DNA of 64,000 nucleotides from Deltaproteobacteria bacterium RIFCSPHIGHO2_02_FULL_40_28 (GTDB taxonomy: Bacteria > UBA10199 > 2-12-FULL-40-28): the NCBI GenBank assembly GCA_001798135.1, contig MGRJ01000022.1, positions 1-64,000 on the forward strand. The letters are read 5' to 3'. Shown one piece after another: positions 19,082 through 25,018 of this stretch (position 1 is its first letter; every line of letters starts with the position of its first letter). The position numbers and the translations under genes were made by a program. The notes below the pieces were generated by a model. The model was not told where the DNA came from, made no database searches, and saw only the letters and a program-made list of their open reading frames with translations.

Positions 19082-19149
19082 ATGTCAAGCTTTTTTCAAA
19101 TTCATCTCCATTCTCTTGACTTATTTTTTGGAAATGACTAAGCCAGCCC

Positions 19150-19343
19150 CATCAGGTTCACCCATGGTGGGTGATGAAAAGGGAAGATGGTGTAAGTCCA
19201 TCACGGTCCCGCCGCTGTAACTCTAACCCTTCGGGGTAAAACCACAAAAGTCACTGTCCGCCAAAGGCGAATGGGAAGACGGTTTTAAGAGAAGTCAGAA
19301 GACCTGCCTGAGACAAGGTTACCTTGTAATATGCGAGGACATC
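19150..19343 (+). ncRNA. Cobalamin riboswitch and leader
   Basis: Clear cobalamin aptamer features in order: CAGGTTCACCC at the 5' side, the core GGGAAGATGGTGTAAGTCC, CCCGCCGCTGTAA, and the B12 box AGTCAGAAGACCTGCC at 19293-19308. The 5' CAGGT can pair with ACCTG of the B12 box to close P1. After the aptamer comes a small hairpin, ACAAGGTTACCTTGT (19313-19327), then GCGAGGA just before the ATG at 19344. That spacing suggests control of ribosome access rather than an intrinsic terminator, as no T tract is present (inferred). It is expected to lower expression of the downstream lipoprotein genes when cobalamin is abundant. Confidence 0.95.
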
Positions 19344-20996
19344 ATGCGGTCTTTTGTTCTTATTTTTATTTTCTTTTTCTGCCTTACGGCCTGCCAAAAT
19401 ACGGGTTTTGTTTTTGATTCTGAGCCAGGTTCTGATGATGACGTCCCAGACACTAACGAAAGTCCTACTCCTTTAAATCCCATAGATCCCACAACAAGTA
19501 GTGTTTCTCTTTTGTCTCTTAATTTGGAGCAAGAAGGAGAAGTTTTTATTCTTGAGGTGGGTCAAACCCAAGACTTAAGTTTTCAGGTTCAATTTTCTGA
19601 TGGCACCATTGAAAATTCAATCACTTCCATTCTCAACTGGCCCAATGGAAGTACAGAAACCATTTTATGGCAAAGTGATAACACAACTGTTGCATCAGTA
19701 GATCAGGGAAGGGTTACAGCCTTGCACGAAGGAGTAGCCTTAATTGGTGCAAGCGTAGGTGAAAAAAATATCCTTGTTGATTTTGTGGTCAATCCTCAAA
19801 CTTCATCTGAAAAAACTCTCACACAGCTTTCTTTTTACCAAGACTCTTATTCACAAACAAGTTCTCGCAGTTTTTTAATAACACTGGATGGAAGTTATTC
19901 TGACCAAACTAGTTTTTCCAACCAGTATGCCGATAATGTTTCTTTAAGATTGGGATGCTCACTTTTACTTTCAAGTAGTCGTCCTGCAGTGGCCGAAATT
20001 ACTCAAGCGGGTGCTGTTATTCCTAAAGCAAATGGGGCAACAAACTTGATTGCTGCTTGCGGCAGTGTGCAGACCTTAAGTGTTTTAACAATTTCTGGTT
20101 TAGATGTCGATGCTCCTTTTGCAGGAACAGAAACCCTGGAATCACTTGCTATTGTTGGGTTAGAGGATGAACAAACATCCGGAAGCGAAGCTTCCCTTTT
20201 TTGTGATGTGACTTTTAATGGCGGGACTGTTTCAAATGCTTCTGGAGATTTTGTTTCACCCGGAGGACAAATTTATTCCATCATTTGGTCTAGTTCCGAT
20301 GAAAGTATTTTTTCTATCGATGAAAATACTGTGAATTTTCTGGTTTATGGTGAAGCCACCCTTCAAGCTGAAGTTGATGGCATGAGTACGACACAAGAGA
20401 TTGCTGTAAAAATGTCTACCGAATGGGCTGCAACCAGTACAGATTATTTTCTTTCCAGTAATGATGAATTTACCCTCACAGAGGAAACTAATGGTGGTTA
20501 CGGTTCCTATCCTAATGCTCTCTATGGTGCACCCTGGACTGGAGGGACCGATGTAGTTTCTTTAGGCGGTGGTGGATCCATTCTTATTCATCTTCAGGAT
20601 TATGTTGTGGTCGATGGAGTGGGTGTTGATTTTACTGTTTTTGAAAATCCTGTTTTAGCCGATGTACTTTTTGCTGAACGTGCACGAGTTTTGGTGAGTG
20701 AAAACGGAACAGATTTTTTTGAATTTTCTTGTGATGAATGGAATACAGCAGAAAATTATCCAGGATGTGCAGGAGTTAATCCTGTAAATGCGCTGGCTAG
20801 TCCCTTTAATCCTTCTATTTCTGGAGGAGATAGTTTTGATTTAGCCGATGTTGGTTTAACATCGGTTTCTTATATTTTAATTGAAGACTTAAATACCTGC
20901 GTAGAAGGTGATCCCACTTATCCCTTATGTGGAGTCAGTTATACTCAGGGTTTTGATTTAGATTCTCTGGTGATCATTAATGGTCAACAGGAATAA
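19344..20996 (+). CDS. Lipoprotein with Ig-like repeats, under B12 riboswitch
   Basis: A 550-residue predicted outer-surface lipoprotein. The signal peptide ends in a lipobox near residue 17 (CLTACQN). An acidic/Pro linker is followed by two or three BIG2-like repeats; each has the WxSxNxxVAxV style (ILWQSDNTTVASVDQGRVTA near 112, IIWSSSDESIFSI near 313). The C-terminal ~170 residues (LGGGGSILIHLQDY, VDGVGVDFTVFENP, SYILIEDL, GFDLDSLVIING) look like a galactose/discoidin-like beta-sandwich found in various cell-surface proteins. It begins directly after the riboswitch and is therefore predicted to be cobalamin-repressed. A role in corrinoid capture is inferred from regulation, not from family. 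Confidence 0.85.
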   Translation: MRSFVLIFIFFFCLTACQNTGFVFDSEPGSDDDVPDTNESPTPLNPIDPTTSSVSLLSLNLEQEGEVFILEVGQTQDLSFQVQFSDGTIENSITSILNWPNGSTETILWQSDNTTVASVDQGRVTALHEGVALIGASVGEKNILVDFVVNPQTSSEKTLTQLSFYQDSYSQTSSRSFLITLDGSYSDQTSFSNQYADNVSLRLGCSLLLSSSRPAVAEITQAGAVIPKANGATNLIAACGSVQTLSVLTISGLDVDAPFAGTETLESLAIVGLEDEQTSGSEASLFCDVTFNGGTVSNASGDFVSPGGQIYSIIWSSSDESIFSIDENTVNFLVYGEATLQAEVDGMSTTQEIAVKMSTEWAATSTDYFLSSNDEFTLTEETNGGYGSYPNALYGAPWTGGTDVVSLGGGGSILIHLQDYVVVDGVGVDFTVFENPVLADVLFAERARVLVSENGTDFFEFSCDEWNTAENYPGCAGVNPVNALASPFNPSISGGDSFDLADVGLTSVSYILIEDLNTCVEGDPTYPLCGVSYTQGFDLDSLVIINGQQE

Positions 20997-21013
20997 ATCT
21001 TAAAGGAGAAATT

Positions 21014-22546
21014 ATGGTTGCCCCTTTAGTTTATTTGGCCCTTGCGGCCGTGCCTTTTATTGCGAGTTGTATGAAAAACGAGGAAGAAGGAGAAACGCCT
21101 ACTCCCGTTGGTCCAGTAACAAATCCCGAAGGAGATACACCCGAAGCTTCCCTAGACACAGGGGTAGATAGTGGAGGAACAACTCCAACAGGTGATGCAT
21201 ATGTTGACGCTGCTATTCCCTCAAATGTAGGCACTTTTGATATCGAAGGGAGTGTTTTTTCTTCACTGTGGGTTAACAATGAAGGTGAAGAGCAGTTTTA
21301 TTATGTGCACAAAGTGGGAGGAACTACCGTTGATGATCCAACAACTCCCGAGCCGGATCCTGTTACTGTTCCCCAAGAATTTTACTTGGGCCAATGCAGC
21401 ACTCTTCCCATTTCTCCAGATCAACAAACAGCTATTTGTGATGATTTAGGTTATGCACTTCCGTTTTCAGATCAAATTGCAGTTTCTTCCCATGTAAAAA
21501 ATTATGAGATTGATGGGGAAGGCGTCATTGTGGTGCCTTACAATAGTGTTGGCCAGGACATGATAGAGGTTGCTAGCACCGATGCTATCACGCTTCAAGA
21601 CTCAGCCGATCATCAAGGTGTGTTTGTGTATGCCACTGATGGAACTTTGTATGCCAATCATAATCTGGCATCAATGACCACAGACTCTGGCTGGAAACTC
21701 TCCGGTGCTGAAGATAGTGCTTATATTTCTGGCCAAAACGAATTGGCTGTTAGTTTTTCCCAGTTTGCAAGTGGAGCAAAAGCGGGTGATGAGAATGTAA
21801 TCACAAATCAATACAACATGGCCTATCCACCAGGAGCTATTGCCTATCTTAACATTGAAAATCCCCTCGATCAAAATCCAAATGTGCGTGTAGTTGAATT
21901 AACCGATGGTGTTGATTATTTCTACAATCCAACAGCCATGCATTTAAAGGATGGTCGCTTGGAAGTTGTGGCTAACTTAGGTACAGGAGATGGAGTTCCA
22001 GTTAAACTTTCTATTGATCCAAGACAAAATGATCTTTCTCTTTCAGGAGCCTTAACGATTGTTACCGAAGGCATTCCTGTTGGAGGTGCTTACAATGCCA
22101 CAGCTACAGAATCGGGGGATTTTTTATTAACAGGAGCCACTGGTTTTGGTGAAGAAAATACGGGTAGCCTTACTCGCATTGCCTCTGATGCCAGTGTGAT
22201 ACCCTATAACGATCTGCCAAATGATTTTACTTTTGTGGCAGGTGCAGAAGGTTTTCATGACGTGGAAGGTCAAGAGGCCCTTGGAAATTATGGTGTGGTT
22301 GTTTCTGGTCAATACGAATACGTTCCAGGAGAAGCAAGCGACGCCTCTCTTTGGTGGTATTACAATGGAAATTGGACAGATTTAGCTTTTGAAGATGCCA
22401 CTGGTGCCCAAGGATTTGCGCTTCCTCCAGTTGTGATGGAGGCGAGTGCTTATGGCAAACAAGGGTCACTTATTTTAGCTCCTGTTTCAGGAATTCGCAC
22501 CGAAACAAGCCCAGTAACCCGTGTGAATGTCTTTGCAACGAATTAA
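21014..22546 (+). CDS. Predicted lipoprotein, beta-propeller-like, B12-riboswitch operon
   Basis: A 510-residue protein with a short signal peptide and lipobox (PFIASC, Cys near residue 19), then an acidic low-complexity linker. The mature part is built from strand-rich blocks such as YNMAYPPGAIAYLNIENP, LKDGRLEVVANLG and NYGVVVSGQYEYVPG, suggestive of a beta-propeller, with no recognisable catalytic motif. It lies 17 bases after the preceding gene with AAAGGAG before its ATG, and its end overlaps the next open frame, so the three lipoproteins read as one operon. The family is not recognised. Confidence 0.8.
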   Translation: MVAPLVYLALAAVPFIASCMKNEEEGETPTPVGPVTNPEGDTPEASLDTGVDSGGTTPTGDAYVDAAIPSNVGTFDIEGSVFSSLWVNNEGEEQFYYVHKVGGTTVDDPTTPEPDPVTVPQEFYLGQCSTLPISPDQQTAICDDLGYALPFSDQIAVSSHVKNYEIDGEGVIVVPYNSVGQDMIEVASTDAITLQDSADHQGVFVYATDGTLYANHNLASMTTDSGWKLSGAEDSAYISGQNELAVSFSQFASGAKAGDENVITNQYNMAYPPGAIAYLNIENPLDQNPNVRVVELTDGVDYFYNPTAMHLKDGRLEVVANLGTGDGVPVKLSIDPRQNDLSLSGALTIVTEGIPVGGAYNATATESGDFLLTGATGFGEENTGSLTRIASDASVIPYNDLPNDFTFVAGAEGFHDVEGQEALGNYGVVVSGQYEYVPGEASDASLWWYYNGNWTDLAFEDATGAQGFALPPVVMEASAYGKQGSLILAPVSGIRTETSPVTRVNVFATN

Positions 22547-22556
22547 AGGAGTTTTA

Positions 22557-23813
22557 ATGAAAAACCTATTTTATCTTTTGTTACTCATTACAAGTTTAAT
22601 AGCCTGCGGATCGCTTAAACAGCAATCTGCAGCTGATGAAGGAGAAGCCGAAGAGGCTGGGGATATTATTCCTGATCCAGATATTGACGTGAGTGAAGAG
22701 GAAATTATCCAGGAAATCCTCTTTTTATTTGGAACAGATTATACTTCTTCTGGTCAATTGTATGTAACTGATGCCGATCCCATTACAGAACTTTTAAATT
22801 CTGGGCTTGCAAGTCTTGGCTCTTCTGCTGTGATTCGTTTTTTTGATGGGTTGCTTTATGTTCTGCATGATGGGTATTCCTTTTTTAGTTCAGATAATGT
22901 GCAAATTATCGATTCGGCAAACAGTTTTGCAACCCAAAATACGTGGTCCACAGGAAATAGCACTAACCCGCACGACCTTGTAGTTGTTGAAAATACCGCT
23001 TATATTACTCTTTATGATGCTGGCAGTGACCCCTCTAATTTAGCTGACAATGGACATCCTGGAGATCTTATTGTGATGGATTTGGCTACTGGCAGCATTA
23101 CAAAAAGAATGAGTTTTTATGATTATCTCAATGTTGATGCCGATATGATGGCTAGAGCTGATCAGATGGTTGTTGTCGGAAACAGGCTTTATGTGTGCAT
23201 CCAGGATTTTGGAAGTGATTTTACTCCTAATGCCCCGGGGAAGTTGGCTGTTATTGATCTGGCCACTAACGAGATTGAAACGGTTTATACTTTAACAGGA
23301 TGGAATCCTGTAGATATTGTTTATTCAGAAACGGCCAATAAGCTTTTTGTTGCCCAGTCGGCAGGGTATGGAGCTTATGATTTTGCAGCCACAGATCATG
23401 GAGGAATTGAAATTGTTCCCTTGAGCAGCCCAACCGCCACCATTTTTTTAACCGATGATATTGCCGATGGGTATATCGAGCGTCTGGTTGTTTCTGAAGG
23501 AAGAGTTTTTGCTGTAGCTTCAGAATTGCAATTTGCTCCTGTGTTTTTGTTTTTATCGGATGTGTGGGTGATGGATGAAAATAACGAGGCAGAAGCTGGT
23601 CTTTCTGTTTTTAGTGCAGATAATGCCGATATTCGTGATATGGTTGCAGATGGCAATGGTTCCTTGTGGATTGCACGAAGAACGATCGAAGTAGGCAGTG
23701 GTGATGCAACAGATCCTCACGTAGATGTGCTTAACAGCACAACGGGAGAAAGTATCGCATCGAATTTAACTTCCGACGTACCAATTACATCGATGGCAAT
23801 CGGACAATTTTAG
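22557..23813 (+). CDS. YncE/BtuG-like beta-propeller lipoprotein
   Basis: The frame is open from 22527, but I prefer the ATG at 22557, which follows AAAGGAG and gives a clean signal peptide with a lipobox (SLIACGS); 418 residues. Blades are visible as repeats of the type GLLYVLHDGY, NTAYITLYD, NRLYVCIQDFG, NKLFVAQSAGY, GRVFAVASE and GSLWIARR, each followed by a short LAVIDL-like strand. That is a YncE/SMP-30-style propeller of about seven blades. The Bacteroides surface protein BtuG, which captures cobalamin, has this general fold. Fold and riboswitch control suggest a similar job (inferred). No BtuB-like TonB receptor is adjacent. Confidence 0.83.
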   Translation: MKNLFYLLLLITSLIACGSLKQQSAADEGEAEEAGDIIPDPDIDVSEEEIIQEILFLFGTDYTSSGQLYVTDADPITELLNSGLASLGSSAVIRFFDGLLYVLHDGYSFFSSDNVQIIDSANSFATQNTWSTGNSTNPHDLVVVENTAYITLYDAGSDPSNLADNGHPGDLIVMDLATGSITKRMSFYDYLNVDADMMARADQMVVVGNRLYVCIQDFGSDFTPNAPGKLAVIDLATNEIETVYTLTGWNPVDIVYSETANKLFVAQSAGYGAYDFAATDHGGIEIVPLSSPTATIFLTDDIADGYIERLVVSEGRVFAVASELQFAPVFLFLSDVWVMDENNEAEAGLSVFSADNADIRDMVADGNGSLWIARRTIEVGSGDATDPHVDVLNSTTGESIASNLTSDVPITSMAIGQF

Positions 23814-23857: not shown

Positions 23858-25018
23858 ATGCAAAAAAAACCTCTTCTCATCATTTTTTTCGTCATTTTTA
23901 TTGATCTGTTAGGCTTTGGCATTGTGATTCCCATCTTGCCTTATTACGCGGCTTCCTTTGGGGCTACAGCTACAAATCTTGGGTGGCTCATGATGTGTTA
24001 TTCGGCCATGCAGTTTCTTTTTTCTCCTTTCTGGGGAGGGCTTTCAGATCGTATTGGACGAAGACCTGTCATTCTTATTTGTTTGGTGGGGATTGGTAGT
24101 TCCCTTGTTTTGTTGGGTATGGCCAAGTCCATGGCATGGCTTTTTCTTGCTCGTCTTTTAGGGGGATTTTTCGGAGCCAACATTTCGGCCGCCACGGCTT
24201 ATATTGCCGATACGACCACCACGGAAAATCGTACCAAGGGTATGGGTATTATTGGAGCTGCTTTTGGTTTGGGTTTTTTATTTGGTCCTGCTTTAGGTGG
24301 AGTGCTTTCTCGTACCAGTTATGGTTTTCCTGCTCTTGTTGCTGCTGGTATTGCAGGGCTTAATTTTATTTTTGCTTTCTTTTTTTTAAAAGAACCCCGT
24401 TTAAACGAAAAAGAAAGAGCTACTCATCGAAGTCACCTTTCTTTATTTTTTATACGTCAAACCTTGCAAAAACAAAAAATAGCCTGGCCCATTTTGTTTT
24501 TTTTTCTAACAACCTTGGGTATTGCTCAATTAGAAACTGCTTTTGGTCTTTTTTTGCTCAAACGTTTTCATTTGGATGCCTACCATGCAGGATTAATTTT
24601 GGCTTTTATAGCTTTGGTGATGGTTTTTATTCAAGGAGGAGCCATTGGTTCCTTGGTTAAAAAATTTGGTGAAAAAAATCTCATTCGAGGCGGTTCTTTG
24701 TTAATGACTCTTGGTTTAGCTCTTGTGGCTGTGAGTTTTTTATTTAATCTTTCACTTGTTGGTTTTTTTATCCATGCCCTGGGTTATGCTGTGGTTAATC
24801 CTTCTCTTGCCGGCCTGGTTTCATCGGAAACCACGGGAGATGTACAGGGTTCTACCATGGGAGTTTATCATTCGGCAGGGAGTTTAGGACGTATTGTAGG
24901 CCCTCTTTTAGCCGGGAGACTTTTTGATTCTTTTGGTGAATCTTATCCGTTTCTTGTTGCTTGTCTCTTTTTTGTGCTGGTTTCATTTTTTGCTTCAGTC
25001 AAATTATCTCAAAAATAA
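23858..25018 (+). CDS. MFS transporter, DHA1/TetA-like
   Basis: A 386-residue permease with about 12 TM segments. The N-terminal half has FIDLLGFGIVIPILPYY and the MFS loop motif GGLSDRIGRRPV near residue 60, both typical of the TetA-like DHA1 drug:H+ antiporters. GAAFGLGFLFGPALGG near 132 is motif C, associated with antiport. It lies 44 bases after the third lipoprotein gene and could be the last gene of the riboswitch unit, which would raise the idea of corrinoid or precursor export or import, but that is speculation. Substrate unknown. Confidence 0.9.
   Translation: MQKKPLLIIFFVIFIDLLGFGIVIPILPYYAASFGATATNLGWLMMCYSAMQFLFSPFWGGLSDRIGRRPVILICLVGIGSSLVLLGMAKSMAWLFLARLLGGFFGANISAATAYIADTTTTENRTKGMGIIGAAFGLGFLFGPALGGVLSRTSYGFPALVAAGIAGLNFIFAFFFLKEPRLNEKERATHRSHLSLFFIRQTLQKQKIAWPILFFFLTTLGIAQLETAFGLFLLKRFHLDAYHAGLILAFIALVMVFIQGGAIGSLVKKFGEKNLIRGGSLLMTLGLALVAVSFLFNLSLVGFFIHALGYAVVNPSLAGLVSSETTGDVQGSTMGVYHSAGSLGRIVGPLLAGRLFDSFGESYPFLVACLFFVLVSFFASVKLSQK

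Follow-up and report, generated by a model that had tools for sequence, protein, structure and literature searches.

Gene arrangement of the riboswitch-led operon

Within the window, by which we mean the whole 64,000-nt stretch of DNA that was analysed, a cobalamin riboswitch is followed on the same strand by three open reading frames, separated from each other by intergenic gaps of 17 and 10 nt (Table 1). All three encode proteins with an N-terminal signal peptide ending in a lipobox cysteine (LTAC in protein 1, IASC in protein 2 and LIAC in protein 3), followed by an acidic linker. The original prediction had described a well-formed B12 aptamer directly in front of three consecutive lipoprotein genes. 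The covariance search bears this out, as the aptamer extends over model positions 1–189, the full length of RF00174, and scores far above the curated gathering score of 31.5. A whole-genome search (2.16 Mb) showed that the copy in the window is the single cobalamin riboswitch of this genome.

Table 1 Features of the operon and its leader (window coordinates).
Feature	Position	Strand	Remarks
Cobalamin riboswitch aptamer (RF00174)	19139..19325	+	cmscan 95.7 bits, E 1.4e-22
Candidate expression-platform hairpin, ACAAGG-UUA-CCUUGU	19313..19327	+	read from the sequence; putative function
Shine-Dalgarno sequence of gene 1, GCGAGG	19333..19338	+	ViennaRNA pairing probability 0.99
Protein 1, lipoprotein, 550 aa	19344..20996	+	Big_2 Ig-like domain, aa 71–140; BtuH-like C-terminal domain, aa ~381–547
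P1C, BtuH-like C-terminal domain of protein 1	20484..20984	+	conserved beside cobalamin riboswitches
Protein 2, lipoprotein, 510 aa	21014..22546	+	diverged relative of the protein 3 family; has relatives at the equivalent place of the operon in L070, L087 and L060
Protein 3, lipoprotein, 418 aa	22557..23813	+	BtuG-like (DUF5074/YncE) beta-propeller

The aptamer ends 18 nt upstream of the start codon of gene 1. Because this short spacer leaves little space for an intrinsic terminator, translational control is the natural reading, and we infer that the riboswitch acts on gene 1 at this level. The candidate hairpin at the 3′ end of the aptamer presents at its loop the sequence UUAC, the complement of GUAA in the L5 loop of the aptamer (UGUAAGU). 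In the fold predicted by ViennaRNA, the Shine-Dalgarno sequence pairs with CCUUGU (19322–19327), which is an alternative to this hairpin. The related locus L070 has a hairpin at the equivalent place, 5 nt upstream of an identical Shine-Dalgarno sequence. The direction of switching is assumed by analogy with other B12 riboswitches.

Downstream of the operon lies a gene for an MFS transporter (23858–25018), which is likewise its neighbor in L070, L087 and L091, with one orientation or the other. This gene is probably conserved there by synteny and not a component of the system.

Domain assignment of the three lipoproteins

Protein 3 matches the Pfam family DUF5074 with an E-value of 4.3e-5 and 23.2 bits, under the cut-off of 27.2, and 7 of the 23 members of its family match DUF5074 at E ≤ 0.01. 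A direct search of the PDB with the single sequence gave no match. The profile of the protein 3 family, searched against the PDB, retrieved BtuG1 (8blw chain B) with an E-value of 3.4e-21, together with other surface chains of the YncE family. By profile, protein 3 is a BtuG-like propeller.

Clear relatives of protein 2 were found solely at the three loci given in Table 1. A PDB search with the profile of protein 2 returned no match, and AlphaFold gave no usable model from the single sequence (pLDDT 33). Aligned by hhalign with the protein 3 family, the protein 2 profile reached 90% and a score of 54.8, compared to scores of at most 16 for 15 column-shuffled controls and at most 17 for reversed ones. 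Since this score lies far over the controls, protein 2 is probably a second, strongly diverged capture propeller. The two propellers that had been predicted are thus on different footing, with sequence and profile evidence for protein 3 and profile–profile similarity for protein 2.

The Ig-like part of protein 1 was recognized as Big_2 (E 1.6e-6), and the single sequence retrieved only Ig-type matches (intimin) from the PDB. The C-terminal domain (P1C) was searched as a profile. At E ≤ 5 this profile matched a single PDB chain, 8blw_B (E 0.0074), at residues 432–498, which belong to the BtuH part of that chain, a piece homologous to BtuH2 (7biz). The alignment with the BtuH piece of 8blw_B scored 23.1 bits, compared to a highest value of 7.1 among about 4,000 scored shuffles, and the alignment with BtuH2 scored 15.0 bits, compared to 8.7 for the best shuffle. 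With hhalign, P1C and BtuH matched at 93% over 56 columns. The likeness extends over some 60 aligned residues, and its scores are modest. These comparisons suggest that P1C resembles the B12-binding domain of BtuH. At the level of structure, the P1C model (pLDDT 78) yielded neither BtuH2 nor BtuG1 among the top 50 Foldseek matches and had only weak matches to CBM32 and F5/8-type C jelly rolls, with TM-scores up to about 0.4. The description of protein 1 as Ig-like and discoidin-like therefore stands.

In a Pfam search with the 39 members of the P1C alignment, no family was found at E ≤ 0.1. As this includes DUF4465, we rejected the assignment of P1C to the DUF4465 (BtuJ) family. The NCBIfam model NF033170 (LIC_13355) matched all 39 P1C domains at E ≤ 0.1 (best 4.5e-14), but the protein in the window reached 14.8 bits versus a curated cut-off of 120 and is at most a distant relative of LIC_13355.

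Distribution of P1C within and beyond the phylum

To the phylum of the window's organism belonged a sample of 46 genomes, 41 with RF00174 and 40 with P1C, which was present as a single copy each time. In 30 of these 40 genomes, P1C follows the riboswitch on the same strand at a distance of 0.2–5.1 kb, an arrangement with a chance probability of about 0.002 per genome; among the other 10, several have P1C on short or broken contigs. The common gene order starts with the riboswitch, followed by a TonB receptor and then by the P1C protein and the propeller in either order, and some loci continue with btuF, btuC, btuD and a TonB gene. The riboswitch-linked P1C is usually accompanied by btuB and often by btuFCD.

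Most members of the class have the riboswitch upstream of btuB. In the order to which the window belongs, it is found upstream of the capture lipoproteins only, with the receptor elsewhere, in G000, G039, G040, G043, G044 and G045, which carry proteins of the protein 3 type, the protein 1 type and sometimes the protein 2 type behind it. G041 is the one genome of this order that has a riboswitch before the receptor as well.

With protein 1 as the query, a scan of one genome from each species, by protein sequence alone, identified 24 P1C relatives, which are distributed among Deltaproteobacteria, Myxococcota, Chlorobiota, Kapaibacterium, KSB1, Zixibacteria, Gemmatimonadota, Calditrichota, Planctomycetota and others. 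A cobalamin riboswitch was present in 17 of these 24 stretches and was located upstream on the same strand in 15. In five cases (L010, L011, L012, L014 and L015) propeller and P1C form one protein, and in L010, L011, L014 and L015 the fusion follows a riboswitch and a TonB receptor. Two fusions (L010:6903-8813 and L015:3073-4971) have a type IX secretion sorting domain at their C terminus, suggesting that they are exported to the cell surface in Zixibacteria and Calditrichota.

The BtuB-type transporter and a probable need for imported B12

Statements on the genome as a whole are based on family searches. The original prediction had noted no btuB or btuFCD behind the aptamer. This is correct for the surroundings of the operon, but the genome does have one BtuB-F-C-D-TonB set, on contig C9, lacking a riboswitch and unlinked to the operon in the window. 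Here, the TonB receptor and the FecCD permease, each the sole one found in the genome, lie side by side, accompanied by BtuF-, BtuD- and TonB-like genes. The best model for the receptor is TIGR01779 (vitamin B12 receptor; E 9e-31, under the equivalog cut-off) and its best PDB matches are to E. coli BtuB. The leading model is BtuF for the binding protein and BtuC for the permease.

A permissive Rfam scan upstream of the C9 btuB gene detected no decayed riboswitch. The receptor operon of G041, which has its riboswitch, is syntenic with the C9 operon including two downstream genes, and this synteny suggests that the lineage of the window lost the riboswitch in front of btuB. In the leader of the C9 btuB gene we observed a dispersed repeat (L028:8432-8479, corresponding to C9:30432-30479 in the genome), of which a second copy with 3 mismatches lies at C9:101691. 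It occupies the place that the riboswitch has in the G041 operon, and its insertion may be linked to the loss. Another, G+C-rich inverted repeat in the same stretch (L028:6160-6246) attracts spurious Rfam microRNA matches and is probably a repetitive element.

CbiC and CobS were not found in the genome by these searches. Eight matches to B12-binding domains were identified, among them one in a MetH-sized protein encoded within the window. Lacking CbiC and CobS and possessing eight B12-binding domains, the organism seemingly does not synthesize B12 and most likely imports corrinoids.

A proposed role in regulated corrinoid capture

We consider it quite likely, judging from sequence, that the locus is a corrinoid-capture operon under riboswitch control that feeds an unlinked transporter. 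At low cellular levels of cobalamin, the riboswitch would permit translation of protein 1, and proteins 2 and 3 would be translated along with it through the tight coupling of the genes. The three lipoproteins would then be displayed on the outer membrane, probably facing outward, where corrinoids would be bound by the BtuH-like jelly roll of protein 1 and by the BtuG-like propellers (protein 3 and probably protein 2). Corrinoids would be passed to the lone TonB receptor BtuB, whose gene lies at a distant site of the genome, and imported by BtuF-BtuC-BtuD. With plentiful B12, the riboswitch would turn off the capture layer; the transporter operon, having no riboswitch, would stay outside this control. 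Both the binding of B12 by the lipoproteins and their surface location with hand-over to BtuB are putative steps of this scheme.

Alternatively, the lipoproteins might reside in the periplasm, at the inner leaflet of the outer membrane, and serve corrinoid buffering or storage instead of capture from outside. A lipobox by itself is silent on the leaflet, and to our knowledge there is no established surface-export signal for this lineage. Still, we regard a periplasmic location as unlikely because BtuG and BtuH are located at the cell surface (PMC6143338, PMC8941943) and because the fused homologs in L010 and L015 bear type IX sorting domains, which direct proteins to the cell exterior.

The operon could also be repressed by B12 while its products serve another purpose under B12 scarcity, for instance attachment to B12-producing cells or to particles. 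Many adhesins have Ig-like and F5/8C/CBM32-like folds, and the related LIC_13355 of Leptospira has been described as binding laminin and plasminogen (PMC11891782). However, the same modules are located beside btuB and btuFCD in most members of the phylum and resemble the B12-binding proteins BtuG and BtuH, which makes such another purpose improbable. Finally, the riboswitch lies upstream of btuB in most of the class and btuBFCD lies elsewhere in this lineage, as expected for a relic of an ancestral btuB operon without meaningful control of the present genes, but this is very improbable given the intact aptamer (95.7 bits), its short distance to the start codon and the retention of the riboswitch with capture genes in other families of the order, which implies selection.

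Capture of the BtuG/BtuH kind outside Bacteroidetes, as originally predicted, is therefore the best reading of the locus. It agrees with the profile matches to BtuG1 and BtuH2 and the co-location with riboswitches throughout the phylum, and is backed too by the module fusions in other phyla, the unlinked B12 transporter and the absence of CbiC and CobS. With somewhat less confidence, we favor the broader view that P1C represents an unnamed cobamide-binding family of the BtuH kind, tied to riboswitches, spread over about ten phyla and present in one copy per genome in the phylum, and that regulation is split in the window's order, where the capture layer and not the transporter would answer to B12.

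Comparison with known capture systems

Lipoprotein-mediated capture of B12 at the cell surface is well studied in gut Bacteroides. The same pairing of riboswitch and proteins in many phyla makes such scavenging look far more common than the gut examples, and if our reading is true, capture of the BtuG/BtuH type would be a general trait of B12-dependent Gram-negative bacteria across many environments. It would also provide a conserved domain without a Pfam entry that is open to direct expression and testing, a testable function for proteins unnamed or filed near LIC_13355, and a case in which the capture layer is regulated separately from its transporter.

The locus is not categorically new, since BtuG, BtuH and DUF4465/BtuJ systems are already known. 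BtuH homologs have been published in Firmicutes (PMC8941943), and B12 binding outside Bacteroidetes has been published for DUF4465 proteins (PMC13398666). What appears to be new in the literature searched is the linkage of P1C to riboswitches throughout the phylum and across phyla, the relation of P1C to BtuH, and a regulated capture layer set apart from a transporter operon without riboswitch.

DUF4465/BtuJ proteins are jelly-roll B12-binding lipoproteins encoded beside DUF5074 propellers and TonB receptors in eight bacterial clades (PMC12751083, PMC13398666); P1C members differ from them in having no DUF4465 match. For the laminin- and plasminogen-binding LIC_13355, no B12 role was proposed (PMC11891782). 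In architecture, a counterpart of protein 1 is BtuH2 of B. thetaiotaomicron (BT1956, PDB 7biz), a lipoprotein in which Ig-like domains precede a C-terminal B12-binding domain (PMC8941943). Protein 1 shares the lipoprotein nature and the combination of Ig-like and C-terminal domains, and the composition is consequently not new, contrary to what had been supposed. The sequence similarity to BtuH2 is weak, although above shuffled sequences, and P1C with its ~170 residues is shorter than the BtuH2 domain.

A further comparison is with BtuG1 of B. thetaiotaomicron (BT1490, PDB 8blw chain B), a propeller with a C-terminal BtuH domain, an extension described previously (PMC10404256). Protein 3 resembles its propeller and P1C its BtuH extension, and riboswitch control, predicted for the present locus, is shared. 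In contrast to BtuG1, the modules are separate proteins here, in another phylum and away from btuB. BtuG is usually encoded with btuB in Bacteroidetes, as are the corresponding genes in many members of the phylum, but not in this genome, whereas the five fusions from other phyla have the modules in the same order as BtuG1.
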